DNA from: an uncultured Desulfovibrionaceae bacterium
GTDB lineage: Bacteria; Desulfobacterota; Desulfovibrionia; Desulfovibrionales; Desulfovibrionaceae
NCBI GenBank assembly: GCA_944325325.1
Contig: CALUZP010000066.1
Span: 1-43,611, forward strand
DNA: 43,611 bases
Direction of reading: 5' to 3'
The position numbers and the translations under genes were made by a program. Of this stretch, positions 21,692 through 36,162 are shown piece after piece (the stretch's first letter is position 1; every line of letters starts with the position of its first letter). The notes beneath the pieces are model-generated. The model ran no database searches and was not told the DNA's origin. It saw nothing but the letters and a program-made list of their open reading frames with translations.

Positions 21692-23428
21692 TCATGAAGG
21701 TATGCCCGATCCTGCCCCGGTAAGGCTGATGTGGTAGCGCTGTGCCTTGCGCACTACGGTCGACTGGCTGACCTTGAGTCGCTCGGCTGCCTTGTAGGTG
21801 CTTCCTGTTTCGCTGAGTGCCACCATGATCATGGTCCGCTCAAGCTCGGCCACGGCTTCCGGAAGTGAACGCAACTGTGGAGGCGGCGGGGTCTCGGGCA
21901 GTGAGGGCTGGAGGTACTCGGGGAGATCTACGGGCATGATGAGGGTGTTTTCACTCATGGTGGCGAGAGAGTAGACAATGGCGCGCAGTTCACGCACGTT
22001 TCCCGGCCATGAATAGGTGAGGAAGCAGTTGAGCACGGCGGGATCGAACGCTTTTGTCAGATTGTTTTTTGTGCAAATTTCGTTGAGGAAATGCATTGCA
22101 AGGATGGGAATGTCGTCCACTCTGTGACGCAGCGGCGGGATTTCAAGCGTCAGTACCCGGAGGCGATAGAACAGATCTTCCCGGAACTGTCCGGCAGACA
22201 CCATGTCCGAGAGTTTGCGGTTTGTAGCCGCGAGCACACGTGCGTCGGAAGTAATGGGACGTGTGCCGCCTACACGCAGGAAGGGATGACCGTCAAGGAC
22301 TTGTAACAGCTTTGCCTGGACTGACATGGGCAGTTCACCGATTTCATCAAGCAGGATGGTTCCCTTTTGAGCCAGTTCGAACATGCCCGGCTTGCCGGTA
22401 TTGGCTGCGCCTGTAAAGGCGCCTTTTTCATACCCAAAAAGCTCGGATTCGACGAGAGAAGGAGGAATGGCTCCACAGTTCACTGCGATGAAGGGGCCGG
22501 ATGCGCGGGCGCTCTGATCATGAATGGCCTTCGCGGCCATGGTCTTGCCCGTTCCCGTTTCTCCCTCGATGAGCGTGATGGCCTCGGTTCTTGCGGCCTT
22601 GGCCACATCACGGCGCAGACGGAGAAGGGCTGCGCTGTTGCCTACAAAGCCTGAGGCGTTGCCGCCTTCCAGACTTTTCAGACGTTCCTTATAGCTTTGG
22701 GTCTCCATTTCGAGATCGGTGAGCTTGCGCTGAAGTGCCTCAAGTTCGGTCATATCTCTGATGGAGGCGATGACGCGCCAGACATTGCCGTTTTCATCAA
22801 AAATAGGCGTGCTGGTGTTCAGGCAGCGTTTGCCATTGGCGTAGTCGTCAAACATGGTTACCGGGCGCTTTTCCGTGAGGGCGCGCAACGTGACGCAGGT
22901 CTCAAAACGGCCTCCGCGCATGGGCTCCGTAACGTGATGTCCGATGACCTCTTCCGCCTTAAGCCCGGCAATGCGCTCTGCAGCCTTATTGATCCGGACG
23001 GTGACCCCGTTGGCGTCAATGACCCAGATGCCGTCGTGGATGGAGTCGAGCAGGACGTTGAGTTCCTGCCAGGGCAGGGCTGCGCCGCTGTTGATGCGGG
23101 CAGGATCCACCTCCGTCATGGTCAGGACCCGCACAGCCTTGGGGGCATGCGCCATCAGTCGCCAGTGGACGATATAAATTTTACCAAGTCGTTGGTAGGC
23201 AATGAACGTGTCCTCCAGAGTATCGGCCGCGGGCAGAGAGAGGTTTTCAAAACCGCATGCGCGCAGCAGGTCGGAGAAAGCACCAGCGTCCCTCTGCCCC
23301 GGGTGGATGCGCAGAATGGCGGCAAGCGGCGCGTTGGCGTAGACGAGCTGCCATCTCTCGCCAAGGCATACGCCTGCAGCGATGAGATCGGCGCGATCAA
23401 TAAGACGTGCGTAGTCTGGAGTGTTCAT
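21692..23428 (-). CDS. Sigma-54-dependent transcriptional activator with PAS domains, probable regulator of ald-tpa-sarD
   Basis: The 578-residue product is a bacterial enhancer-binding protein. A poorly conserved PAS-like region (about 12-105) is followed by a clear PAS domain (about 125-228, SIHDGIWVIDANGVTVRIN), a coiled-coil linker (about 228-256), and the AAA+ domain with Walker A GETGTGKT (289-296), GAFTGA (336-341) for sigma-54 contact, and Walker B LLDEIGE (359-365). The C-terminal helix-turn-helix (about 541-563, STYKAAERLKVSQSTVVRK) is TyrR-like. There is no receiver domain, so it probably senses a small molecule directly. It diverges from ald, which has a perfect sigma-54 promoter, so control of the taurine module is a strong inference. 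The inducer (taurine or a product) is not known. Confidence 0.92.
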   Translation of the reverse strand: MNTPDYARLIDRADLIAAGVCLGERWQLVYANAPLAAILRIHPGQRDAGAFSDLLRACGFENLSLPAADTLEDTFIAYQRLGKIYIVHWRLMAHAPKAVRVLTMTEVDPARINSGAALPWQELNVLLDSIHDGIWVIDANGVTVRINKAAERIAGLKAEEVIGHHVTEPMRGGRFETCVTLRALTEKRPVTMFDDYANGKRCLNTSTPIFDENGNVWRVIASIRDMTELEALQRKLTDLEMETQSYKERLKSLEGGNASGFVGNSAALLRLRRDVAKAARTEAITLIEGETGTGKTMAAKAIHDQSARASGPFIAVNCGAIPPSLVESELFGYEKGAFTGAANTGKPGMFELAQKGTILLDEIGELPMSVQAKLLQVLDGHPFLRVGGTRPITSDARVLAATNRKLSDMVSAGQFREDLFYRLRVLTLEIPPLRHRVDDIPILAMHFLNEICTKNNLTKAFDPAVLNCFLTYSWPGNVRELRAIVYSLATMSENTLIMPVDLPEYLQPSLPETPPPPQLRSLPEAVAELERTMIMVALSETGSTYKAAERLKVSQSTVVRKAQRYHISLTGAGSGIPS

Positions 23429-23447
23429 AGTTCTATATTCCGATGCA

Positions 23448-23469
23448 TTTTTGAATTGTAATGCAAAAA
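23448..23469. promoter_or_regulatory. Inverted repeat in the regulator-ald intergenic region
   Basis: TTTTTG (23448-23453) and CAAAAA (23464-23469) form an inverted repeat with a 10-base spacer, centred about 30 bases before the regulator start. It could be an autoregulatory site, or an AT-rich coincidence. Confidence 0.35.
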
Positions 23470-23474
23470 CGAAT

Positions 23475-23508
23475 CGAGTTACATCACCCGATTACGGCGA
23501 GTTAAATC
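23475..23508 (+). promoter_or_regulatory. Direct repeat, candidate upstream activating sequence
   Basis: CGAGTTACATC (23475-23485) and CGAGTTAAATC (23498-23508) differ at one base and are 23 bases apart, about two helical turns. They lie 85-115 bases upstream of the sigma-54 promoter, the usual distance of enhancer-binding-protein sites. Binding by the divergent regulator is inferred. Confidence 0.5.
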
Positions 23509-23590
23509 AAAAATGACTTGCCACGTAAAGTCCCCAGGTGGAATTTTTTTTAATATACTGAAAATATTACAAAAATTTTTTTGGGAAAAA

Positions 23591-23606
23591 TGGCACAGTT
23601 GTTGCT
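23591..23606 (+). promoter_or_regulatory. Sigma-54 (-24/-12) promoter of ald-tpa-sarD
   Basis: TGGCACAGTTGTTGCT matches the sigma-54 consensus TGGCAC-N5-TTGC at every conserved position. Transcription would start near 23617, giving an 80-base leader to the ald ATG. The divergent activator gene with an intact GAFTGA motif supports it. Confidence 0.93.
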
Positions 23607-23698
23607 CTAGAAAAAGTGAAACCTTGAACATGGTTTTAGGTTTTCATTGAACAAGGACCAAACATACAAATTCATCCATATTACTTCGGAGGCACCCC

Positions 23699-24820
23699 AT
23701 GTTTGTAGGTATTCCCAAGGAAATCAAGGCTCAGGAAAATCGCGTCGGTATTACCCCTGCTGGTGTTCATGCTCTTGTTGAAGCTGGTCACCGTGTGGTG
23801 GTTGAAAAGGGCGCAGGCCTGGGCAGCATGATCACCGATGAAGAATACATTGCCGCTGGTGCTCAGATCGTGGCTACCGCCAAGGAATGCTGGGACGCCG
23901 AAATGGTTGTGAAAGTCAAGGAACCCCTTGCCCCCGAATATGAGCTCTTCCACGAAGGGCTGCTGCTGTTCACCTATCTGCACCTGGCTCCCGAACCGCA
24001 TCTGACCAAGGCTCTGCTTGACAAGAAGGTTGTGGGCATTGCCTATGAAACCGTGCAGCTTGACAACGGTGCCCTGCCGCTGCTCGCTCCCATGTCCGAA
24101 ATCGCCGGCCGTATGGCGACCCAGGTTGGCGCTCAGATGCTGACCAAGATTGAAGGCGGCATGGGCGTTCTGCTGGGTGGCACCGCCGGCGTGCAGGCCG
24201 CGCATGTGGTCATCATCGGCGCCGGCACGGTGGGCCTCTCGGCCGCCAAGGTGGCCATGGGCATGGGCGCCCGCGTGACGATTCTCGACAGCAACCTGAA
24301 CCGCCTGCGCTACATCGATGACATCTACGGTGGTCGTATCCAGACCCTGGCTTCCAACGCGTTCAATATTGCCGCGGCTGTGAAGGAAGCTGACCTGCTC
24401 GTTGGGTCCGTGCTGATTCCTGGTGCGCTGACTCCGAAACTGGTGACCGAAGCTATGGTCAAAACCATGAAGAAGGGCGCGGCCATTGTTGACGTGGCCA
24501 TTGACCAGGGCGGCTGCATCGAACCGACCGCCAAGCACGGTGCCACCTATCATGACCATCCGACCTTCATGTATGAAGGCGTGGTGTGCTACTCCGTGGG
24601 CAACATGCCCGGCGCTGTGGCCCGCACCTCGACATTCACGCTGACCAATGCTACCATGCCCTACATGATGGCGCTGGCCAACAAGGGCTGGAAGAAAGCC
24701 TGCCAGGATGACAAGGCCCTTGCCCGCGGCATCAACACCTGCGATGGCAAGGTGTATTTCAAGGGCGTGTCCGATGCGCTCGGCTATGAACTGAACTGCA
24801 CCTGCGACCTGCTCAAGTAA
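23699..24820 (+). CDS. ald: Alanine dehydrogenase
   Basis: Ald oxidatively deaminates L-alanine to pyruvate and ammonium with NAD+. The 373-residue product has the usual length and motifs: MFVGIPKEIKAQENRVGITP, substrate-binding Lys74 (VKVKEP) and His95 (FTYLHLAPE), the dinucleotide fold VIIGAGTVGLSAAKVAMGMG with the acidic ILDSN at the strand end, and the C-terminal AIVDVAIDQGGCIE. GGAGG precedes the ATG. In this operon it regenerates the pyruvate used by Tpa as amino acceptor and yields the NADH that SarD can use. It is the first gene behind the sigma-54 promoter; codon usage (uniform GAA, CTG, AAG) suggests high expression. Confidence 0.97.
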   Translation: MFVGIPKEIKAQENRVGITPAGVHALVEAGHRVVVEKGAGLGSMITDEEYIAAGAQIVATAKECWDAEMVVKVKEPLAPEYELFHEGLLLFTYLHLAPEPHLTKALLDKKVVGIAYETVQLDNGALPLLAPMSEIAGRMATQVGAQMLTKIEGGMGVLLGGTAGVQAAHVVIIGAGTVGLSAAKVAMGMGARVTILDSNLNRLRYIDDIYGGRIQTLASNAFNIAAAVKEADLLVGSVLIPGALTPKLVTEAMVKTMKKGAAIVDVAIDQGGCIEPTAKHGATYHDHPTFMYEGVVCYSVGNMPGAVARTSTFTLTNATMPYMMALANKGWKKACQDDKALARGINTCDGKVYFKGVSDALGYELNCTCDLLK

Positions 24821-24830
24821 GTATTCCGTT

Positions 24831-24864
24831 CAGACTCTTCCCGCCATACGGCGGGAAGAGTCTG
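24831..24864 (+). other. 15-bp perfect hairpin in the ald-tpa gap
   Basis: CAGACTCTTCCCGCC (24831-24845) pairs perfectly with GGCGGGAAGAGTCTG (24850-24864) around a 4-base loop ATAC, ten bases after the ald stop. No U-tract follows on either strand. A transcript-processing or 3'-end-protecting role, giving different amounts of ald and tpa mRNA, is inferred. Confidence 0.6.
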
Positions 24865-24966
24865 CTGTCAAGCCGGGAGAGGGCCGGACACTCCGCTGGG
24901 GTGCGCCCCCTTCGGGATTTGTGACAGAATGGTCTAACCTTTTGACCCATTAGGGGAGTCAAGACA

Positions 24967-26355
24967 ATGTCGAATTGCTGCTGCAACAAGGAAGAACTGA
25001 TTGCTCTGGATAAGAAACATGTGTGGCACCATCTTACCCAGCACAAAACGTTTGAAACCTCCGATCCCGCCATTTATGTGAAGGGCGAAGGCATGCGCAT
25101 CACCGACATCAACGGCAAACAGTACATTGACGCCGTGTCCGGTGGCGTGTGGACCGTGAACGTTGGCTATGGCCGCAAGGAAATCGTTGATGCTGTCAGC
25201 AAGCAGATGATGGAACTGTGCTACTTTGCCAACGGCATTGGCAACATCCCCACCATCAAGTTCTCCCAGAAGCTTATTGAAAAAATGCCTGGCCTGAACC
25301 GTGTGTATCTCTCCAACTCCGGTTCCGAAGCCAACGAAAAGGCCTTCAAGATCGTCCGTCAGATTGGCCAGCTCAAGCATGGCGGCAAGAAGACCGGCAT
25401 CCTGTACCGCTATCGTGACTATCATGGTACCACCATCGGCACCCTGAGCGCTTGCGGCCAGTTCGAACGCAAGGTGCAGTACGGCCCCTTCGCGCCTGGG
25501 TTCTATGAATTCCCCGACATGGATTCCTACCGCACCAAGTTCGAACACAATGACGAACTCGGCAAGAAGATGGCCCTCCAGATGGAAGAAGTGATCCAGA
25601 AGGTCGGCGAAGATGAAATCGGCGGCGTGATCGTGGAACCCATGACCGCCGGCGGCGGCATCCTGATTCCTCCGGCGGGCTACTATGAAACCATGCAGGA
25701 AATCTGCAAGAAGTATGGCATCCTGCTGATTATGGACGAAGTCGTGTGCGGCCTTGGCAGAACCGGCAAGTGGTTCGGCTACCAGCACTTCAATGTCCAG
25801 CCCGACATCGTCACCATGGCCAAGGGTGTGGCCAGCGGCTACGCGCCCATTTCCTGCACCGTGACCACTGAAGACGTTTTCCAGGACTTCATCAACGACC
25901 CGGCCGACCACGACGGCTACTTCCGCGACATCAGCACCTTCGGTGGCTGCACGGCCGGTCCTGCCGCCGCCCTGGTCAACATTGACATCATTGAACGCGA
26001 ACATCTCCTTGAAAACTGCGCCGCCATGGGCGACTACCTCCTCGAAGGCTTCAAGGGGCTGAAAGACAAGCACGCCATCATCGGTGACGTCCGCGGCAAG
26101 GGCCTGTTCGCCGGCATCGAAATGGTTAAGGATCGCGCCACGAAGGAACCCATCGCCGAACCCATCGCCAACGCTATGGTCGGCGCTGCCAAGGAAGCCG
26201 GCGTGATCATCGGCAAGACCTCCCGTTCGTTCCGCGACCTGAACAACACCCTGACCCTCTGCCCGGCGCTTATCGCCACGAAGTCCGACATCGAAGAAAT
26301 CGTTGCCGGCCTTGACAAGGCGTTCACGGCTATCGAAAAGAAGTTCAACCTGTAA
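24967..26355 (+). CDS. tpa: Taurine--pyruvate aminotransferase
   Basis: Tpa transfers the amino group of taurine to pyruvate, forming sulfoacetaldehyde and L-alanine. The 462-residue product is a class III (omega) PLP-dependent aminotransferase. Visible are YLSNSGSEANEKAFKIVRQ, YHGTTIGTLSA, the PLP-pyridine Asp257 (IMDEVVCGLGRTGKWFG) and the Schiff-base Lys286 (TMAKGVASGY). The choice of Tpa over other omega-aminotransferases rests on the neighbours ald and sarD and on overall likeness to the Bilophila-type enzyme. An unusual run of three Cys occurs at residues 4-6. GGGGAG lies upstream of the ATG. It is separated from ald by 146 bases with a strong hairpin, but a promoter of its own was not identified. 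Confidence 0.93.
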   Translation: MSNCCCNKEELIALDKKHVWHHLTQHKTFETSDPAIYVKGEGMRITDINGKQYIDAVSGGVWTVNVGYGRKEIVDAVSKQMMELCYFANGIGNIPTIKFSQKLIEKMPGLNRVYLSNSGSEANEKAFKIVRQIGQLKHGGKKTGILYRYRDYHGTTIGTLSACGQFERKVQYGPFAPGFYEFPDMDSYRTKFEHNDELGKKMALQMEEVIQKVGEDEIGGVIVEPMTAGGGILIPPAGYYETMQEICKKYGILLIMDEVVCGLGRTGKWFGYQHFNVQPDIVTMAKGVASGYAPISCTVTTEDVFQDFINDPADHDGYFRDISTFGGCTAGPAAALVNIDIIEREHLLENCAAMGDYLLEGFKGLKDKHAIIGDVRGKGLFAGIEMVKDRATKEPIAEPIANAMVGAAKEAGVIIGKTSRSFRDLNNTLTLCPALIATKSDIEEIVAGLDKAFTAIEKKFNL

Positions 26356-26367
26356 GAGATGCCCGGA

Positions 26368-26400
26368 GGACAGGCTGCCAGCGAGAACGGGAGCCTGTCC
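26368..26400 (+). other. Hairpin in the tpa-sarD gap
   Basis: GGACAGGCT (26368-26376) pairs with AGCCTGTCC (26392-26400) around a 15-base loop, followed by CCCTCTCTTTGG, a weak pyrimidine tract. It could be a partial terminator or an mRNA-stability element between tpa and sarD. Confidence 0.5.
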
Positions 26401-26486
26401 CCCTCTCTTTGGTTACAATACGTTAACAGAAAAGGGGCAAAGCGTGACTACGCCTTGCTCCTCTGCCATTCAAAGGGGATAGTGTT

Positions 26487-27650
26487 ATGGCCTTTACGCA
26501 TTTTACGGTGAAGAAGATTGTTCATGGTCTCGGCGCCATTAAGGAAGCAGCCAAGGAAGTCAAGAACCTGAAGGGTTCCAAAGTGATGATCGTGACCGAC
26601 CCCGGTCTGGCCAAGCTTGGCGTCCAGAAGCCTCTGGAAGACGCGCTTACCGCTGGTGGCATTGAATGGAAGCTGTACGCTGAAGCCCAGCTCGAACCCA
26701 GCATGGATTCGATCCAGCATTGCACCGATGAAGCCAAGGCTTTTGGCGCTGACGTGATCATCGGTTTTGGTGGCGGCAGCGCGCTTGACACCACCAAGGC
26801 CGCCTCGGTGCTGCTGACCAACGAAGGCCCCATCGACCGCTACTTTGGGACGAACCTGGTTCCCAATCCCACCCTTCCTTTCATTCTTATCCCCACCACC
26901 GCTGGCACCGGTTCGGAAATGACCAATATTTCTGTGCTGGCTGATACCAAGAATGGTGGCAAGAAGGGCGTTGTTTCCGAATACATGTATGCGGATACCG
27001 TCATCCTCGATGCTGAACTCACCATGGGTCTGCCGCCCCGTGTGACGGCTATGACCGGTGTTGACGCGTTTGTCCACGCCATGGAATCCTACTGCGGCAT
27101 TGCTGCCACCCCCATCACCGACGCCCTGAACCTGCAGGCCATGAAGATGGTGGGTGCCAACATCCGTCAGGCCTTTGCCAACGGCAGCAACCGTGCTGCC
27201 CGTGACGCCATGCTGTACGCGTCCGCTCTGGCCGGCATGGGCTTCGGCAACACCCAGAACGGTATCATCCATGCCACCGGCACCACGCTGCCCACAGAAT
27301 GCCATATTCCTCATGGTCTGGCTATTGCCATCTGCTCGCCCTTCAGCGTGGGCTTCAACTACATCGCCAATCCCGAAAAGTACGCCGTGGTTGCCGATAT
27401 CCTGCGTGGTGACGACCGTGCCGGCGTCATGAGCGTGCTTGACCGCGCCGCCGACGTGGAAAGCGCTTTCCGCGATCTGCTGCGTGACCTGGACATCAAG
27501 ACCGGGCTTGCCAACTACGGCGTGAAGCGTGAAGATCTGCCGGCCTGCGCCGATCGCGCCTTTGCTGCCAAGCGTCTGCTGGACAACAACCCCCGTCGCG
27601 CTTCCCGCGACCAGATTCTGGCTCTGCTCGAAGCCAACTTCGAAAACTAG
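26487..27650 (+). CDS. sarD: Sulfoacetaldehyde reductase (iron-type alcohol dehydrogenase)
   Basis: SarD reduces sulfoacetaldehyde to isethionate with NADH. The 387-residue product is a group III, metal-dependent alcohol dehydrogenase with the nucleotide motif GGGSALDTTKA and the four metal ligands in place: Asp193 and His197 (GVDAFVHAMESY), His262 (GIIHATG) and His276 (IPHGLA). The function is inferred from its position behind ald and tpa, the arrangement reported for Bilophila wadsworthia taurine degradation; by sequence alone it could be another alcohol dehydrogenase of the family. AAAGGGG precedes the ATG. A strong terminator follows, so the unit ends here and the glycyl-radical isethionate sulfite-lyase must be elsewhere. 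Confidence 0.88.
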   Translation: MAFTHFTVKKIVHGLGAIKEAAKEVKNLKGSKVMIVTDPGLAKLGVQKPLEDALTAGGIEWKLYAEAQLEPSMDSIQHCTDEAKAFGADVIIGFGGGSALDTTKAASVLLTNEGPIDRYFGTNLVPNPTLPFILIPTTAGTGSEMTNISVLADTKNGGKKGVVSEYMYADTVILDAELTMGLPPRVTAMTGVDAFVHAMESYCGIAATPITDALNLQAMKMVGANIRQAFANGSNRAARDAMLYASALAGMGFGNTQNGIIHATGTTLPTECHIPHGLAIAICSPFSVGFNYIANPEKYAVVADILRGDDRAGVMSVLDRAADVESAFRDLLRDLDIKTGLANYGVKREDLPACADRAFAAKRLLDNNPRRASRDQILALLEANFEN

Positions 27651-27714: not shown

Positions 27715-28539
27715 TTCTGCAGCAGGCTTTCCGTGCGTGCTGGCTGGCGGTCAATTGACAGCATTGACAGGCAAAACAGGTAGATCCGATTTTCATGTCT
27801 GGTGCTGACAGTTTCAGATTGAGGGAACAGCGAAAACCGGACAGCCACGGCCGGATGTGCAGGAGAAGCCACCCTGCAAGTGGTGTTTTCCTGCGTGGTT
27901 GCTTTCTGCGAGGGGAATTGAGGTCAGATGTGTGTCCACTGCATGCGGACTGCTGTAACGGTGTGTACTCATGCCAAGCAAAGGCTGGCGAGGTCCCATA
28001 CATATGCTGAGGGTGCCAGACAGGAGAGCGCCCTGGTGTACGCACCCGTTGTCCAGTAAAGACCTGCAGGCGATGGTGGCGGGTCGCCATGTCCGTTTTG
28101 ACTTTTGATGGCAAGGCTGGGGCAGAGCGCCTTGATGTTCTCTGGGCGGCGACTATCTCTGCTGTCTGCTGTGCTTTTCAGATAAACGGTGCACAGACGG
28201 TTTTTTTGAGGTAGCTTGGGTGCCGTAGGCCTGTTTGAAAATGGAAACAGCCACCATTGCAGCGCCGCATGCAGTTGGTATACCGTTGCCTCTTCATGAG
28301 ACAGTGTAGTCATGATGCCGTCTCTGTCAGGAGTCGTGCGACGTGCGGGGCGTGGGCGCAAGCAGATATGTTGCCTCTGCCACATCTGGAGACAGCATAT
28401 CTCGTTGAGCTGGCTTGGTCTGCTCTGTGCACTTCACAGATGTCACAGGCGACTGACATGACCAGCTTTGACGCATACGGGTAGCGAAGTGTACGTGGCT
28501 CCGGATGTACATAGGGAAACAGCCGGCGGGGGCAATGCA
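27715..28539. other. 825-base intergenic stretch
   Basis: No gene is convincing on either strand. It is unusually long for a bacterium of this type. Apart from a possible terminator-like element at 28164-28207, no clear structure was seen. It may hold the promoter of the histidine kinase gene and could encode a small RNA. Confidence 0.45.
28164..28207 (+). terminator. Possible isolated terminator in a gene-free stretch
   Basis: CTGTGC (28169-28174) can pair with GCACAG (28191-28196), with GTCTG/CAGAC as an alternative outer pairing; ACGG and seven T (28201-28207) follow. The stem is short. If real, it would end a non-coding transcript, because no gene lies upstream within 500 bases. Confidence 0.3.
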
Positions 28540-29937
28540 ATGTCAAGGAAACTGATGGGGAAGGTGCTCCCCGATACACTGTTTGGCCGTCTGGTGACAG
28601 TAGGCGTTTTTTGTATTCTGGCAGTGTGGGTGGTTTCGTTCTGGGATGCCAAAATGCGTTCGGACAGCCTGTATATGCGCACACTGGCGGATGTTGAAAG
28701 CCGTATTTTCGCGCACCATATCCGTCTGCTTTCTTCGCAGGGACCTGAGTGGCGGGCTCAGATGGCCAGATACCTCAGTCAGCGTAAGGAGCTGCATGTA
28801 GAGCTGCATAATTCAGCGATCACGCTGCAGAAAGGGGATCCCGTGCTTTCACAGTGGCTTGTCGACGCGATCCGGGAGGAACTGCGCACTTCGGGCAGCT
28901 CTGTCAGATCCATCGCAGGCAGCACGCGTTTTGGCAGGCAGGAGACAAGCCGCTTTGCCGGTTTGTTTGACGGATTGTTGTTTAGTGTGCCCTATTCTGG
29001 CAGAGTTGAGGTTGCGGCTGAGTTTGATGATGGCCAGTGGCTTTATATTGCCCATGCGTTGGAGAATCTGCCAAGTAAGGGGTTGAGCCGGGCCCTGCGG
29101 CGGTTGCCGGCTGAATTGTTTGTGATTGTTATCATTGCCTTTGTCGCCACGCTCTGGATTGTCCGTCCGCTGTACTGCCTGACGGAGGCGCTGGACAAGG
29201 GACTTGAATCCGCACCGCTCCCGGAAGACAAGGGCACGGTGGAAATCCGTAACGCCGCCAAGGCATTTAACGCTATGCAGTTGCGCCTGCGGGAATTTAT
29301 CCGGCAGCGCAGTTTGCTGTTTGTGTCTATCTCTCACGATCTTCGAACGCCGCTGACACGTCTCCGTCTTCGGCTTGAAGCGTTGCAGGATCAGGACATT
29401 CGTTCGGCCATGCTGCATGATGTGGAAAATATCCAGCGTAATCTGGACATCCTGATCAAGGCCGGGCGCAGCCTGGACATGAATCTTTCACCGGAGGAAG
29501 AAGAGCGGGTCAATATTATGGCTATGCTTGAGACGCTGGTTGAAACACGCCAGGATCTCGGACAGGATGTGACACTGACAGGGCGTGTGGAGGGCGCATT
29601 CTGGTTGCCACCACAGTCTTTTCGCAATGCTATTGATAATTTGCTTGAGAATGCCGTGCGGTATGGAGAAGGCGCGGACATGTCCATAGCCAGGGAAGGT
29701 GAGCAGCTTATTGTTGATGTCTGCGACCACGGCCCGGGGATTCCGGAGGATCAACTTGATCATGTCTTGGAACCTTTTTACAGGCTTGAGCGTTCACGTA
29801 ACCTTAAGACTGGCGGATACGGTCTGGGTCTGGCTATTTCGCGGAATCTGGCCCGCAAGCTGGGTGGGGATCTCACACTGGAAAATGCTCGAGAAGGCGG
29901 CCTGCACGCCCGATTCACCGTCCGGCTGCGTTCATGA
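28540..29937 (+). CDS. Membrane sensor histidine kinase (EnvZ-like)
   Basis: The kinase passes a signal from outside the inner membrane to the regulator encoded downstream. The start at 28540 (GGGGGC upstream) gives 465 residues; Met6 is also possible. A first membrane helix (about 17-36, LVTVGVFCILAVWVVSF) and a second (about 190-212, ELFVIVIIAFVATLWIV) enclose a periplasmic sensor domain of about 150 residues. A HAMP-like linker follows, then the H-box with the phosphoacceptor His266 (SISHDLRTPLTRLRLR), the N-box NAIDNLLENAVRYG, and ATP-binding DHGPGIP and GGYGLGLAI. The kinase precedes its regulator, with 534 bases between them. Confidence 0.92.
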   Translation: MSRKLMGKVLPDTLFGRLVTVGVFCILAVWVVSFWDAKMRSDSLYMRTLADVESRIFAHHIRLLSSQGPEWRAQMARYLSQRKELHVELHNSAITLQKGDPVLSQWLVDAIREELRTSGSSVRSIAGSTRFGRQETSRFAGLFDGLLFSVPYSGRVEVAAEFDDGQWLYIAHALENLPSKGLSRALRRLPAELFVIVIIAFVATLWIVRPLYCLTEALDKGLESAPLPEDKGTVEIRNAAKAFNAMQLRLREFIRQRSLLFVSISHDLRTPLTRLRLRLEALQDQDIRSAMLHDVENIQRNLDILIKAGRSLDMNLSPEEEERVNIMAMLETLVETRQDLGQDVTLTGRVEGAFWLPPQSFRNAIDNLLENAVRYGEGADMSIAREGEQLIVDVCDHGPGIPEDQLDHVLEPFYRLERSRNLKTGGYGLGLAISRNLARKLGGDLTLENAREGGLHARFTVRLRS

Positions 29938-30034
29938 GTCCCTGATGATACACTTTGCTACACAACTGACATCCGAATGAAACGGATGAGTGGGCAGACT
30001 GGGGTAACACTGTGATGTAGACAGGAGACGTATC

Positions 30035-30247
30035 ATGTTTTGCCCGGTTGTGTTTATTGACAGTTTCCCAGGCACGGTTCAGCCTGTCCGTGTTCTGGAA
30101 TTTGTACGGATCAGGCGAAAACCAAAGAGACGCAGACTGAAGCGGCTTGCATATCCAGTGCCGGTCTGGGCTGGCCTTTTGCCGCGCTATATGATGCCAT
30201 GCCGGCCGGGTAAAACCCGCAGCAGACGTCAGGAAGAGGAAATTTGA
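30035..30247 (+). CDS. Possible small basic protein between kinase and regulator genes
   Basis: A 70-residue frame starts with ATG and has AGGAGA at a good distance. The product is strongly basic in the middle (RIRRKPKRRRLKRL) and the end (GKTRSRRQEEEI). I recognise no family, and the composition could be chance. It lies in the 534-base gap 29938-30471, where the only other element seen is a small hairpin at 29968-29987 (CATCCG/CGGATG) without a U-tract. Confidence 0.25.
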   Translation: MFCPVVFIDSFPGTVQPVRVLEFVRIRRKPKRRRLKRLAYPVPVWAGLLPRYMMPCRPGKTRSRRQEEEI

Positions 30248-30471
30248 AGCAAAGACGCAGTTGTAAGCAGTCGTCAGCAGATAGTGCATTACTCAGGTTT
30301 GTCGTTTGTCTGAAAAGCCAGCGTACCCGCAAAGCCGATTCCTTGCTGGGAAGCGGCCGGACATGCAGTTCGTGAGGTGTGATGTGAGTTTTATGGGACA
30401 GTACACGTCTTTTGACCCGGCGTTGACCTGCGCTGAGTATAACCTTCAACCGTCTGGTACCAGATTGAATT

Positions 30472-31227
30472 ATGACTGTCGTTGAAAAGGAACGAATTCT
30501 CGTCGTTGATGACGATGACGAAATTTGTCAGCTGCTTGCTGGGTATCTACGTCAGCAGGGCTTTGAGGTCGATACGGCCGGGGATGGCAGGCGTCTTTTT
30601 GAAGTTCTGGAGAGCCGTATACCTGATCTGGTGATCCTGGATATCATGCTGCCGGGGGAAAGCGGGCTTGAGCTGTACAAGCGCCTGCAGGAACGCACAG
30701 ATTTGCCAGTGATATTTCTGACAGCACTGGACAGTGTAACGGATCGCGTTGTGGGGCTTGAGCTCGGCGCTGATGACTACATGATCAAACCGTTTGAGCC
30801 GCGCGAACTGCTGGCCAGAATACGTACTGTCCTGCGCCGCAGCCGTGCAGGCAGGAGACTGGGGGGAGTCAGCCTGTCATCCGGTCATGCTGAGACGTCG
30901 GAGTGCCTGTCGTTTGCCGGTTGGGAACTCAACGTCCGCTCCCGGGTTCTGCATGATCCTGATGGTGCGCTTGTGGAGCTGAGCGACGCCCAGTACCGGT
31001 TGCTGATGATTTTTCTGGCGCATCCGTTTCAGATCATGAGTCGGGACATGCTGCTTAACCTGTTGCACGGCCGCGAGGCAGCACCGTTTGATCGCAGTGT
31101 AGACATCCAGGTGAGCCGTCTGCGTAATCGCCTTGGAGACAGCGCAACCATGCGGCTGATCCGCACGGTGAGGGGCGGCGGATACATGTTTGCGGTGGCC
31201 GTGACGCCGGTGGAAAGGCATGGCTGA
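30472..31227 (+). CDS. OmpR/PhoB-family response regulator
   Basis: This 251-residue transcription factor has a receiver domain (about 8-122) with the acidic pocket DDDDE (13-17), phosphoacceptor Asp57 (LVILDIMLPG), Thr84 (FLTAL) and Lys106 (YMIKPFEPRELLARI). A winged-helix DNA-binding domain (about 150-245) follows with LSDAQYRLLMIFLAHP, DRSVDIQVSRLRNRLGD and the wing RTVRGGGYMF. It is presumably phosphorylated by the kinase encoded upstream. No good Shine-Dalgarno sequence precedes the ATG. A tandem TTTGATAC repeat 530 bases downstream is a possible target. Confidence 0.93.
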   Translation: MTVVEKERILVVDDDDEICQLLAGYLRQQGFEVDTAGDGRRLFEVLESRIPDLVILDIMLPGESGLELYKRLQERTDLPVIFLTALDSVTDRVVGLELGADDYMIKPFEPRELLARIRTVLRRSRAGRRLGGVSLSSGHAETSECLSFAGWELNVRSRVLHDPDGALVELSDAQYRLLMIFLAHPFQIMSRDMLLNLLHGREAAPFDRSVDIQVSRLRNRLGDSATMRLIRTVRGGGYMFAVAVTPVERHG

Positions 31228-31914
31228 GTCGCCGGTCGTGTCTTTGCCTGTATGATGGAAGAACTTGAGTGGCATGCATGGAAAAGATCAGTATGCAGGC
31301 GTGTAATATCCTGTCAGTGCCTTGTCTCTGTCATGTTTATGCTTTTACAGTTTCCCTACAAAAAGCGTCGATGCCTTGAGCCGGACATGATTGTGTTGCC
31401 TTCAGACATACAGGGGGCTTTGCTGCCGTGTGTCTGCATATCCTGAACGGGCGGTGCTTGAAAGCAGAGGAACGCCTTATCAGTGCCTGATTCAACTATC
31501 AGTCGCGATCCAGCCGTGCAAGAAATGCGGGGAACTCGGATGAGAGCGCGGGGGTATTCTAATCCTTTATGGCGCATGACCGTCTTAGAGGGGAAGGTCG
31601 TGCACCTCTGGAGTACGTTGGTGCTCTGTGCCTTGACGCTGCGCACGGTGTGAAACATGTTGTAATGGTTGAGGTCAGAAGAGTGATTTTTTCGTACCAG
31701 GTAAGGGAAGCAGAAGGTGTAAGATGAAACTAGAGCGTTGTCGGTTACAGGACGTGATAGTTTGATACTTTTTGATACAAAGGGGACATCGTGACGACAA
31801 CAACAGGAGGCAGTGTAGGCCTGTCAGACAAGTCCAATGGCGCATGCCTGCCGCGTTGCTCAGGATGAGTGCCTGCTTGCCGAGATTTGAGTGTATCACA
31901 AAGGAGTTACCTGT
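31228..31914. other. 687-base intergenic stretch with a tandem repeat
   Basis: No protein gene is convincing here. The one distinct feature is the tandem repeat at 31761-31780 described separately; the following part leads to the small exported protein gene. Confidence 0.45.
31761..31780 (+). promoter_or_regulatory. Tandem 10-bp direct repeat, candidate response-regulator site
   Basis: TTTGATACTTTTTGATACAA contains two copies of TTTGATAC spaced exactly 10 bases apart, the geometry bound by dimers of OmpR-family regulators. A further GATA lies at 31756-31759. The site is 135 bases before the small exported protein gene and downstream of an OmpR-type regulator gene. Confidence 0.5.
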
Positions 31915-32109
31915 ATGTCTGCACGTTTTCTGATAGCCGCTCTGGCCGTGGTGTCTCTGATGTCTACCCCCTTTGCCGCATCTGCTGCCTCAGATAAATC
32001 CAGCAATCATAAGGACGCCAAGACGCAGACTTCCCAGTCCCTTGACGACTACGAACATCCCAAATGGATCGGCGTTGGTCTGCCCCCTATTGATTATATG
32101 GGCAACTAA
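31915..32109 (+). CDS. Small exported protein of unknown function
   Basis: The 64-residue product has a clear signal peptide: MSARFLIAALAVVSLMSTPF, with a likely cut after ASA-A at about residue 23-24. The mature part of about 40 residues is polar (SDKSSNHKDAKTQTSQSLDD) and ends YEHPKWIGVGLPPIDYMGN. I recognise no family. AAGGAG lies at good distance upstream, and a strong terminator follows. The position next to a two-component pair and the tandem repeat suggests it is a regulated envelope protein, but this is inference. Confidence 0.75.
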   Translation: MSARFLIAALAVVSLMSTPFAASAASDKSSNHKDAKTQTSQSLDDYEHPKWIGVGLPPIDYMGN

Positions 32110-32147
32110 TTACGTCTGAACCCCTTGCATCGTCTTGCAGTGGCACT

Positions 32148-32192
32148 GCCGCCCTGCTGCCAGCTTTGCTGACAGCAGGGCGGCTTATTTTG
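32148..32192 (+). terminator. Intrinsic terminator after the small exported protein gene
   Basis: GCCGCCCTGCTG (32148-32159) pairs with CAGCAGGGCGGC (32173-32184), a 12-bp perfect stem, followed by TTATTTTG. Confidence 0.85.
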
Positions 32193-32609
32193 TTCATAAG
32201 GCCAGAGAAGCTGTTGCAGCCCTGAAAAACACAGCAGCAGCCCGTGCGCCAACAGCGACAAGGGAGAGTTATGCATGCGCTGACAACCGTTCATCGTTGG
32301 AACGCCTGACAGCAGAAGGCCGGCAAGCCTTGTGTTGTCCCGGATACAGGGTACACTACAGTCTTTTGGGCGCAGTGTCCCTGTAGTTTCATGCTGTGCA
32401 CGGTAATGGAGTATTAAGGCCAGCTCTTTCTTGACCGGAGCTGTCCAGGAGCCTCCTCATACGGTAGGCAGCCTGTGCTGCGTTGTGCCTTCTGAACGTT
32501 TTTCTTTGGGGCATTCCAAAGAGAGGTTTGTTGCGGCTGTGCATCAGGAAATCAGGATGGAAGCAACATTGTGAAGATTCAGGCACTGTTTAAGTGTGGC
32601 AAGGGTGTT
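32193..32609. other. Intergenic stretch without a recognised gene
   Basis: This 417-base gap lies between a plus-strand terminator and the stop of the minus-strand hxlR-type gene. I see no gene and no clear terminator for the latter. Confidence 0.45.
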
Positions 32610-33047
32610 TCAGTCAGATTTGCTTCCGGGATGTCCTGAGCAGCAGGTACAGGGCGTTTGAGATGCGGCGTGTCCGTCAGGCGGCAGCATGGTGCAATTG
32701 ACGGTTTTGCCCTGATGTTGCAGATAGCCGCTTCCCCAATGGTACATGGCTTCAAGGATCGGCCGGATACTGTTGCCCAGCTCGGTCAGGGCGTAGTCGA
32801 CCCTTGGGGGGATGACGGGATGGATTGTGCGCCGGATGAGTCCGTCGGCCTCCAACTCGCGCAGCTGCTGGGTGAGCATTTTGGGTGTGGCCTGAGGTAC
32901 TTCCCGGCCAAGCTGAGAAAAACGGAGCGTTTTGCCTGTCAGTTTCCAAAGAATCAGTGCCTTGTACTTTCCACCTATCAGATCAAGCGTGGTTTCTACC
33001 GGACAACAGGTTTCGGCTCCGTGCGCCGGGTGCTTTGAATGGTCCAT
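32610..33047 (-). CDS. HxlR-family transcriptional regulator with Cys-rich ends
   Basis: HxlR-type winged-helix regulators often sense electrophiles, redox change or toxic compounds through cysteines. The 145-residue product has the family core CCPVETTLDLIGGKYKALIL, LRFSQLGREVPQATPKMLTQ, then LRELEADGLIRRTIHPVIPP, and DYALTELG. Unusually it has Cys14-Cys15 at the start of the core and a C-terminal tail with one Cys (VNC) and a CTCC cluster. This could bind metal or sense thiol stress. It diverges from copA with a palindrome covering its own ribosome binding region, so autoregulation and perhaps control of copA are plausible. Confidence 0.88.
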   Translation of the reverse strand: MDHSKHPAHGAETCCPVETTLDLIGGKYKALILWKLTGKTLRFSQLGREVPQATPKMLTQQLRELEADGLIRRTIHPVIPPRVDYALTELGNSIRPILEAMYHWGSGYLQHQGKTVNCTMLPPDGHAASQTPCTCCSGHPGSKSD

Positions 33048-33054
33048 TCGTCAT

Positions 33055-33072
33055 ACTATCCTTTAGGGTAGT
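33055..33072. promoter_or_regulatory. Palindrome, candidate operator of the HxlR-type regulator
   Basis: ACTATCC (33055-33061) and GGGTAGT (33066-33072) form an inverted repeat with one mismatch and a TTTA spacer. It overlaps the Shine-Dalgarno region of the regulator, within 25 bases of the start, a common place for an autorepressor site. Known HxlR-family operators are also short palindromes with TACT/AGTA ends. Confidence 0.5.
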
Positions 33073-33101
33073 TCATATCATAAAAGTACATTCTTGCTAA
33101 A

Positions 33102-33130
33102 AAGATATTCATGTATAGGATTCTTGTCAA
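33102..33130 (-). promoter_or_regulatory. Probable sigma-70 promoter of the HxlR-type regulator
   Basis: On the minus strand TTGACA (33125-33130) is followed after 17 bases by TATCTT (33102-33107). The candidate operator lies 30-50 bases downstream, between the promoter and the start codon. Confidence 0.55.
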
Positions 33131-33543
33131 AGATAGGAAAGTTCAGTGACAGGCGGTTCTCTCTCCCGGAGCAGGGGTAACTGTTTTTCGATTTATTGGC
33201 GAGGTTCCATGGTACAGCTGCCTTAATGCCGGAGGCGGGAAGGCTTGCAAGATGGCATGGAGTCCCTGGGAGTCGGTGCCTGGAGCGTCAAAGCTCAGGT
33301 GTGTGCAGGGGACAACAGCCCATTCTTAAAGAGTGTGTCGTGCGCACGGCAGGATCACTGTACGCCTTTGGAATGTCGGTCTGTAGCGAGAGCCGGCCAA
33401 AATTGGCGAAGGCCGTGCCCCACAGCAGCAGATGCTGGCAGCAGGCAGCTGTGTTGAAGGTATAAAATACGTTGCAATCTCAATCGGATTCGGGCGTGTC
33501 TTCTGATGGCGGAAGGCTGCACGGATTACAAGGGACTGTTTCC
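33131..33543. other. Intergenic stretch upstream of copA
   Basis: This 413-base stretch must hold the copA promoter. TATAAAAT (33461-33468) is the best -10 candidate, but I see no good -35 or a clear CueR/CsoR-type box. No gene was recognised. Confidence 0.4.
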
Positions 33544-36162
33544 ATGAAAAAAGAGCGATTCGACGTGACGGGCATGAGCTGCTCGGCGTGCTCGGCTCGG
33601 GTGCAGCGGGCTGTTTCTGGCCTTGACGGTGTCAGTGAAGCCGGCGTGAACCTTCTGACCAACAGCATGAATGTCGTTTTTGATGAAAAGCGTCTTTCTT
33701 CCGAGGCCATTGTCGAGGCTGTCCGTGCTGCAGGATATGGCGCTTCCGTGCATGGTGGCTCACAGGTGCCGACAAAGGCAAAGACGGGCTCTGAGGCTGC
33801 GGAAGAGGAACTGCGTGATATGCGCCGGCGGCTGATCGTGTCGTTTGTGTTCCTGGTGCCTCTGTGCATCGTATCTATGGGGCACATGGTGGGGCTTTCT
33901 CTCCCCTCGTTTATGTGCGGCTCTTCCGGGGCTCTTGCGCGTGCCTTCACGCAATTTTTGCTGACGCTTCCTGTTGTGTTCGTCAACTTCAAATATTACC
34001 GCGTCGGCTTCAAGACGCTGTTTGCAGGCGCTCCGAATATGGACTCGCTCATTGCCATTGGTTCCGGGGCGGCGGTGGTGTCAGGCATAGGCGCCATCTA
34101 CGCGCTTGGTGCAGCGCTGGGCAGAGGTGATATGGCCGGCGCAGAGCATCTGGCGTCGAATCTGTACTTTGAATCAGCGGCCATGATCCTTACGCTCATT
34201 ACGCTGGGCAAGTTTTTTGAGGCACGTGCAAAGGGGCGTACGGCCGATGCCATCGCCGGTCTTGCGCGGCTTGCACCCAAGACAGCGACTGTGGTGCGTG
34301 AGGGCAAGGAAGTCCAGATTTCCATTGACGACGTGCGCGTGGGTGACAGGCTGGTTGTCAAGGCCGGGGAACGGGTGCCTGTGGATGGCGTGGTCATTGA
34401 AGGCAGCGCCTTTGTGGATGAGTCGGCCATCACCGGCGAGAGTGCGCCTGTGGAAAAGCTTGCAGGCAGCCAGGTGACAGGGGCTTCAATCAATCAGTCC
34501 GGACATCTGCTCATGCGGGCCGTGCGTGTTGGCGACGACACCACCCTTGCGCAGATTATCAGGCTGGTGGATGAAGCTGTTTCCTCCAAAGCGCCTATTG
34601 CGCGTCTGGCAGACACGGTCAGCGGAATCTTTGTCCCCGTGGTGATTGTTATCGCGCTGGCGGCCGCAGTTGTGTGGCTGCTGCTGGGGTACGGCATTGA
34701 ATTTGCGCTGTCCACCGCCATTTCTGTGCTGGTTATTTCCTGCCCCTGTGCGCTTGGTCTGGCAACACCTACGGCCATCATGGTCGGCACGGGACGTGGC
34801 GCGCTCAACGGCATTCTGTTCAAGTCGGCTGAAGCCATTGAGACTCTGCATCGGATTGACACGGTTGTACTTGATAAGACCGGCACGGTGACGGAAGGCC
34901 GTCCGGAAGTGACGGACATTGTGCCCGGGCCCGGCAGCAGTGTTGAGGCTCTGCTGGTGATTGCGGCGTCACTGGAAAAGCTTTCTGAACATCCGCTTGG
35001 CGGAGCCATCGTCCGTGAAGCAGAGCAAAAAAAGCAGATTCTGCACAGGGTTGCCGGCTTTGTGCAGATTCCAGGGCAGGGGATTTCCGGCGAAATAGAT
35101 GGCAAACGCTGCCTGGCTGGCAACCGCGCCATGCTTGATGCGCAGGACATAGCGTGTGATTCCGGGCTGGATGTACGTGCCAAAGCCTTTGCCGAGGAAG
35201 GCAAGACGCCGATCTATTTTGCCTTTGATGGCAGAGTGCTGGGTGTAATTGCGGTGTCTGACGCCATCAAGTCCACCAGTGCCCAGGCTGTCAGCGAGCT
35301 TGCCGGCATGGGAATAGAGACCGTCATGCTGACCGGCGACAATGCCAGGACGGCGGCTGCCGTACAGCGCCAAACCGGCATAGGCCGCGTGCTGGCCCAG
35401 GTGCTGCCGCAGGACAAGGAGCGAGAAATCCGTGCGCTGCAATCCCGGGGGCACAAGGTAGCCATGGTCGGCGACGGCATCAACGACGCTCCGGCTCTGG
35501 CCAGAGCAGATGTGGGTGTTGCCATTGGCGCAGGTACTGATATTGCCATTGATTCTGCTGACGTTGTGCTCATGCGCAGCGATTTGCTGGATGTTGTGAC
35601 GGCCATACAACTGGGACGGGCCGTCATGCGCACTCTCCGTGAAAATCTGTTCTGGGCCTTTTTCTACAACTGCATAGGCATCCCCATTGCAGCCGGCGTG
35701 TTCTACACGTCATGGGGGCTGACGCTCAATCCGATGATTGCGGCTGCGGCCATGAGTTTCAGTTCCGTCAGCGTTGTTTCCAACGCGTTGCGGCTACGGC
35801 TGTTCAAGCCTCAACACAAGGGGACGGCATCGGCATCCGACAGGCAGGCCGGGCCTGCCTGCTGTGCGGCATCGCTGTGTCCTGTTTCTGTCAACTCTGA
35901 TCCTGCCAATTCTGAAAACATTCAACCTAAACAAGGAAGTACAGTTATGAAAAAGATTATTTCAATCAACGGGATGCAGTGCAGTCACTGCACCGGATCT
36001 GTGGAAAAGGCGTTGCGTGCCGTGCCTGGCGTGAGTGACGCCGTGGCCGATCTGGCCGCCAGGACCGCCACGGTGACGTTGAGCTCTGACGTGGCCGACG
36101 AAACACTTTCAGCCGCTGTGACCAACGCAGGTTTCACGGTTACCGGCGTGCAGAAAGCGTAA
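33544..36162 (+). CDS. copA: Copper-exporting P1B-type ATPase with N- and C-terminal metal-binding domains
   Basis: CopA pumps Cu(I) out of the cytoplasm. The ATG at 33544 has AAGGGA upstream; the 872-residue product begins with an HMA domain (CSAC at 13-16). The membrane part has the CPC metal site (400-402, ISCPCALGL). Catalytic motifs are DKTGT (Asp444), EHPLGGAIV in the nucleotide domain, and GDGINDAPALARADVGVAIG (from 643). After the last membrane helices, a linker of about 45 residues rich in Ala, Ser and Cys leads to a second HMA domain (residues 802-872, CSHC at 813-816). A C-terminal HMA is unusual in CopA. That last domain has its own start signals (next entry). It diverges from the HxlR-type gene. 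Confidence 0.95.
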   Translation: MKKERFDVTGMSCSACSARVQRAVSGLDGVSEAGVNLLTNSMNVVFDEKRLSSEAIVEAVRAAGYGASVHGGSQVPTKAKTGSEAAEEELRDMRRRLIVSFVFLVPLCIVSMGHMVGLSLPSFMCGSSGALARAFTQFLLTLPVVFVNFKYYRVGFKTLFAGAPNMDSLIAIGSGAAVVSGIGAIYALGAALGRGDMAGAEHLASNLYFESAAMILTLITLGKFFEARAKGRTADAIAGLARLAPKTATVVREGKEVQISIDDVRVGDRLVVKAGERVPVDGVVIEGSAFVDESAITGESAPVEKLAGSQVTGASINQSGHLLMRAVRVGDDTTLAQIIRLVDEAVSSKAPIARLADTVSGIFVPVVIVIALAAAVVWLLLGYGIEFALSTAISVLVISCPCALGLATPTAIMVGTGRGALNGILFKSAEAIETLHRIDTVVLDKTGTVTEGRPEVTDIVPGPGSSVEALLVIAASLEKLSEHPLGGAIVREAEQKKQILHRVAGFVQIPGQGISGEIDGKRCLAGNRAMLDAQDIACDSGLDVRAKAFAEEGKTPIYFAFDGRVLGVIAVSDAIKSTSAQAVSELAGMGIETVMLTGDNARTAAAVQRQTGIGRVLAQVLPQDKEREIRALQSRGHKVAMVGDGINDAPALARADVGVAIGAGTDIAIDSADVVLMRSDLLDVVTAIQLGRAVMRTLRENLFWAFFYNCIGIPIAAGVFYTSWGLTLNPMIAAAAMSFSSVSVVSNALRLRLFKPQHKGTASASDRQAGPACCAASLCPVSVNSDPANSENIQPKQGSTVMKKIISINGMQCSHCTGSVEKALRAVPGVSDAVADLAARTATVTLSSDVADETLSAAVTNAGFTVTGVQKA
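35947..36162 (+). CDS. Possible free copper chaperone (CopZ-like) made from an internal copA start
   Basis: Within copA and in the same frame, ATG 35947 is preceded by AAGGAAG with a 7-base spacer, a ribosome binding site better than that of copA itself. Translation from it gives a 71-residue protein, the exact size of a CopZ/Atx1-type chaperone: MKKIISINGMQCSHCTGSVE with Cys12 and Cys15, and the usual four-strand, two-helix pattern to the end. The linker before it looks like a translated intergenic region. The same DNA would thus give both a tethered and a free chaperone. It is read from sequence only; internal initiation is not shown. Confidence 0.6.
   Translation: MKKIISINGMQCSHCTGSVEKALRAVPGVSDAVADLAARTATVTLSSDVADETLSAAVTNAGFTVTGVQKA

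Follow-up and report, generated by a model that had tools for sequence, protein, structure and literature searches.

A probable autoregulating OmpR-type pair and the gene of a species-specific, putatively exported small protein in an uncultured Desulfovibrionaceae bacterium

The DNA analysed here, referred to as the window, is a stretch of 43,611 nucleotides from one contig of an uncultured Desulfovibrionaceae bacterium. It carries the genes of a two-component pair, followed by a gene encoding a small protein, and two related sites that resemble binding elements of OmpR-family regulators. The features on which the analysis is based are the following:

28540..29937, + strand: sensor histidine kinase resembling EnvZ, 465 aa with the ATG at 28540 as start; TTG at 28468 is a possible alternative start
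29947..29962, + strand: site A, GATACACTTTGCTACA, probable regulator binding site, predicted
30472..31227, + strand: OmpR-like response regulator, 251 aa, REC/Trans_reg_C
31764..31779, + strand: site B, GATACTTTTTGATACA, within the TTTGATAC repeat at 31761-31778, probable regulator binding site, predicted
31900..31906, + strand: strong Shine-Dalgarno sequence AAAGGAG, 8 nt ahead of the ATG
31915..32109, + strand: 64-aa orphan protein, probably exported, with an ATG start and a gene-like codon score
32148..32191, + strand: intrinsic terminator of the small gene, a hairpin at 32148-32184 with a T-rich tail after it

The kinase and regulator genes are separated by an unusually long gap of 534 bp (29938-30471), in which a 70-codon ORF with a good Shine-Dalgarno sequence (30035-30247) was considered as a second small gene and rejected on its codon score of -0.08; no known RNA element was found at the locus. 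The regulator gene is devoid of a terminator of its own, and the nearest one predicted downstream is that 3' of the small gene. On either side of the small gene lies an imperfect inverted repeat of 22 nt (31472-31493 and 32576-32597), with no other copy in the genome. No support was obtained for a mobile element as the source of the 1.38-kb gap, the flanking repeat being unique in the genome and the base composition unremarkable. Further downstream, at 32610-36162, the gene of an HxlR-family regulator and that of a copper P-type ATPase (copA) are divergently oriented; the ATPase has an additional CopZ-like metal-binding domain at its C-terminal end.

The kinase contains the Pfam domains HisKA and HATPase_c, with HAMP under its cutoff; EnvZ is its best relative among solved structures and its H-box, SHDLRTPLTR, is identical to that of EnvZ. 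The regulator combines a REC domain with a C-terminal winged helix (Trans_reg_C), which is the domain composition of the OmpR subfamily; over 238 aa, 41% of its residues are identical to those of E. coli OmpR. Its phospho-acceptor aspartate aligns with Asp55 of OmpR (VILDIMLPGE and VLDLMLPGE, respectively), and its recognition-helix region, DRSVDIQVSRLR, is nearly the same as that of OmpR, ERSIDVQISRLR. Among the NCBIfam models, the best for the kinase is that of EnvZ proper (NF007004; 155.8 bits, below the equivalog cutoff of 415) and the best for the regulator is that of OmpR proper (NF007005; 206.9 bits, below the equivalog cutoff of 331). Because both proteins remain below these cutoffs, we call the pair EnvZ-like and OmpR-like; it probably works like EnvZ/OmpR and should not be classed as EnvZ/OmpR proper.

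The codon score of the small ORF is 0.31 per codon, at the 44th percentile among segments of real genes. None of the 280 intergenic segments scores as high, and no other ORF of the surrounding gaps surpasses them all, the next best reaching 0.17. The terminator region folds with z = -5.0, none of 200 shuffles being as good, and TTATTTTG follows directly after the hairpin. Codon usage, Shine-Dalgarno sequence and terminator thus place the gene beyond chance. The N-terminal 24 residues, judged by eye, resemble a Sec signal, MSARFLIAALAVVSLMSTPFAASA, ending in A-S-A, and the mature part of about 40 aa is hydrophilic (GRAVY -1.14) and contains no cysteine; AlphaFold2 gives only an N-terminal helix (pLDDT 61) and no fold otherwise. 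From its sequence, the protein is probably exported, leaving a short, hydrophilic and probably unstructured periplasmic peptide. A first-pass annotation of this DNA had described a secreted small protein with its own terminator; the codon score and the fold of the terminator support the gene and its terminator, and the Sec signal is an apparent one.

The 64-aa protein belongs to no Pfam or NCBIfam family, has no significant PHROGs match, and neither Pfam nor NCBIfam relates its sequence to any known family of small regulators. Homologues were found neither in 149 relatives, the genus, viral contigs, plasmids and phages, nor in 288 genomes of the family (with the mature part as query) or 348 genomes of the order. 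The only match with E below 0.01 (E 0.006, in genome G041) lies inside a 425-codon frame, aligns poorly and was rejected.

Upstream of the small gene, at a distance of 136 nt, the two copies of TTTGATAC that the first-pass annotation had placed exactly 10 bases apart are indeed found at 31761-31768 and 31771-31778, and no other copy exists in the window. Since the window has three 8-mers with an exact second copy at +10 and one with a copy at +11, this repeat alone is not significant; what makes the site credible, although such repeats are not rare, is the presence of an OmpR-like regulator and an EnvZ-like kinase, agreement with the OmpR rule, a second site and a copy in a sister species. Published work divides the 20-bp OmpR element into two sub-elements of 10 bp each (PMC3050692) and places GXXAC at its centre, together with another AC doublet at helical spacing (PMC7867234). 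The repeat reads GATAC-TTTTT-GATAC (that is, GATAC-N5-GATAC), with GXXAC in each 10-bp half, and sites A and B both follow this rule. Moreover, site B is the best match of the window, with 13 of 18 positions, to the E. coli OmpR consensus, TTTACTTTTTGNAACATAT.

When the 18-bp site was searched with up to three mismatches, the window contained two matches against 0.15 expected, a number that none of 100 shuffles reached. The second match, GATACactttGCTAC, lies just past the kinase stop and corresponds to site A, which is the second-best GXXAC-N5-GXXAC site of the window; 10 bp separate it from the kinase stop and 509 bp from the start of the regulator gene. The flanks of sites A and B are unrelated (6 of 40 bases upstream), whereas the two sites and the site of the sister species have 20 of 27 bases in common in pairwise comparison. 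The motif derived from these three sites, GATACNNTTTGNTACA, matches exactly only sites A and B in the host genome, and no further exact match was found in the host or sister genome. Other GATAC-type sites that were followed up turned out to be in coding frames or to be single cases without support.

The three congeneric genomes were searched with site B alone, allowing up to two mismatches, and four matches were obtained: site B itself, one at the 3' end of the kinase gene of the sister species (G002), and others. The sister copy, GATACATTTTGATACA, differs from site B by one mismatch and overlaps the 3' end of the kinase gene, namely the position of site A; the chance of one of the sister's two matches landing in that gap, which is about 600 bp long, is estimated at ~6e-4. 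In the sister the kinase is also retained, the regulator is 88% identical and the order of regulator, HxlR and copA is as in the window; its kinase and regulator genes are on two contigs and the gap between them is only partly visible. The gap of 500 bp between regulator and HxlR in the sister contains neither the small ORF nor site B, and a strong hairpin followed by a T-run is found 3' of the regulator instead. As the three genus genomes are 73-84% complete, the absence of the small gene is shown at this position of G002 and is unproved elsewhere. Since it is absent at the sister's position and has no homologues, the small gene is young, fast-evolving or lost in relatives. The earlier suggestion that the repeat fits an OmpR-family dimer is supported, in silico, by two GXXAC halves 10 bp apart, the OmpR-like regulator and the related site kept in the sister.

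In the family, GXXAC-N5-GXXAC occurs within 200 bp upstream of the regulator at 4 of 10 related loci against 0.3 expected (P 2.7e-4), with 0 in the spacing and composition controls for these 10 loci; the 200-bp limit was set after a first listing had been viewed. The 200 bp ahead of the regulator show no such enrichment at 42 proteobacterial loci that are more distant and partly redundant (3 against 2.1 expected). We treat the enrichment as supporting evidence only, because the limit was set post hoc and the enrichment is absent from the distant loci.

We consider it fairly probable that the locus encodes an autoregulating OmpR-type pair that also controls the species-specific 64-aa gene. According to this model, the EnvZ-like membrane kinase would phosphorylate the OmpR-like regulator, and two regulator molecules would then occupy, in head-to-tail arrangement, a 20-bp site whose 10-bp halves each contain G-A/C-T-A-C. 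Site A, which follows the kinase gene immediately and precedes the regulator gene, probably sets the level of the regulator, and site B probably acts as the transcriptional switch of the 64-residue gene that it precedes. Transcription of this gene would end at the strong terminator, and the product would be exported and a periplasmic peptide released. That the regulator binds and controls sites A and B we infer from the site, and activation appears more likely than repression. Several observations speak against this reading: a search of the + strand near site B gave no sigma-70-like promoter, the distance of site A from the regulator start is long for simple autoregulation, the sister has neither site B nor small gene between regulator and HxlR, and the distant proteobacterial loci display no enrichment. 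Paralogous OmpR-family regulators, moreover, use related sites, for example GTNAC repeats (G000:C79, G002:C36), so that the binder may be another.

The first-pass annotation had gone further and suggested that kinase, regulator, site and small protein could form one signalling unit. This is only partly supported: the OmpR-type site, the OmpR-like regulator and the conservation of site A are in agreement with such a unit, but a fixed unit is not supported, given that between regulator and HxlR the sister has neither the peptide gene nor site B and that a search of about 350 genomes of the order gave no homologue. Two roles of the peptide were weighed, of which output is given the larger share. 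Asr-type proteins are small periplasmic stress proteins under OmpR-family control, exported, short, hydrophilic and with no predicted fold, and lineage-specific envelope effectors are common in the regulons of pairs of this kind. The peptide could be no more than an output, namely a small, disordered stress peptide of the periplasm with an Asr-like role, made when the pair is active and without action on the sensor; this we regard as a real possibility, somewhat short of an even one. It accords with the hydrophilic, unstructured mature part and with what is generally known of such regulons. The likeness to Asr-type proteins (predicted export, short length, hydrophilicity, no predicted fold) is a general one and comes without homology, the 64-aa protein having no homologue in the genomes searched.

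A chance repeat, with the small gene expressed independently, for instance by read-through from the regulator gene, appears rather unlikely. It would be in keeping with the two further 8-mers repeated at +10 in the window, and with the fact that the sole terminator predicted downstream of and near the regulator gene stands after the small gene; yet two species have the site at the end of the kinase gene, and the similarity between A and B is confined to the site.

By analogy with MgrB, a member of the PhoP regulon of 47 aa that inhibits PhoQ (PMC8404706), the regulator-controlled exported peptide might instead act on the periplasmic side of the kinase. Such loops exist, as this precedent demonstrates, and the 64-aa protein resembles MgrB-type modulators in being small, directed to the membrane or periplasm, probably part of the regulon of the neighbouring pair, and encoded close to it. 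MgrB, however, requires its membrane segment, whereas no retained segment is expected here and the protein looks like a cleaved soluble peptide; it has no sequence relation to MgrB-type modulators or to any family, and its gene is missing at the sister's position although kinase and regulator are conserved. Feedback of this kind is in our opinion improbable, and we give equally little credence to the broader proposal that a lineage-specific, perhaps newly arisen exported peptide is the feedback or sensing part of an autoregulated pair, with sensor tuning differing between sister species. That site B is bound by another of the cell's OmpR-family regulators is just as improbable, for although the genome has up to 18 regulator-like candidates and a paralogue has its own GTNAC sites spaced by 10 bp, the halves of that paralogue are GT-N-AC rather than GATAC and both exact GATAC-type sites of the genome are within this locus.

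Compared with EnvZ/OmpR of E. coli and Yersinia, the pair is alike in domain make-up, H-box, recognition helix and head-to-tail 10-bp half-sites with GXXAC, and autoregulation is also likely here. It is unlike EnvZ/OmpR in the 41% identity under the equivalog cutoffs, in the kinase gene preceding the regulator gene across the 534-bp gap, in having HxlR and copA as neighbours, and in its predicted target, an orphan small gene. The kind of pair is already known; the predicted target, an orphan gene for a probably exported peptide, is what is unusual. If the autoregulating pair does control this gene, a concrete site and a small regulon would be assigned to an uncharacterised OmpR-type pair in Desulfovibrionaceae, and a clean natural comparison would be offered by two species of one genus that have sensor, regulator and self-site in common, the exported peptide being added in one and apparently not in the other. 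The locus would also be a tractable case for studying the recruitment of orphan small proteins into regulons and their possible part in the tuning of kinases.

OmpR proper controls porin genes. An OmpR-like pattern, GAAACGTCTTGCTACA, occurs in both species at a conserved porin-like gene (L200, L204), overlapping its start codon. For the single porin-like gene checked, no upstream site was found, and the sole match, overlapping the first codons, is probably just the coding sequence of MKRLAT.

GTNAC half-sites recur at intervals of about 10 bp at L198 (G000:C79) and L195 (G002:C36), a series that is conserved between the two species and, at L195, lies upstream of another response-regulator gene. 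The window also carries taurine-degradation genes at 21692-27650, encoding alanine dehydrogenase, a taurine:pyruvate-type aminotransferase and the sulfoacetaldehyde reductase SarD (735.7 bits, above the cutoff of 700); a sigma-54 PrdR-like regulator is encoded there on the other strand.
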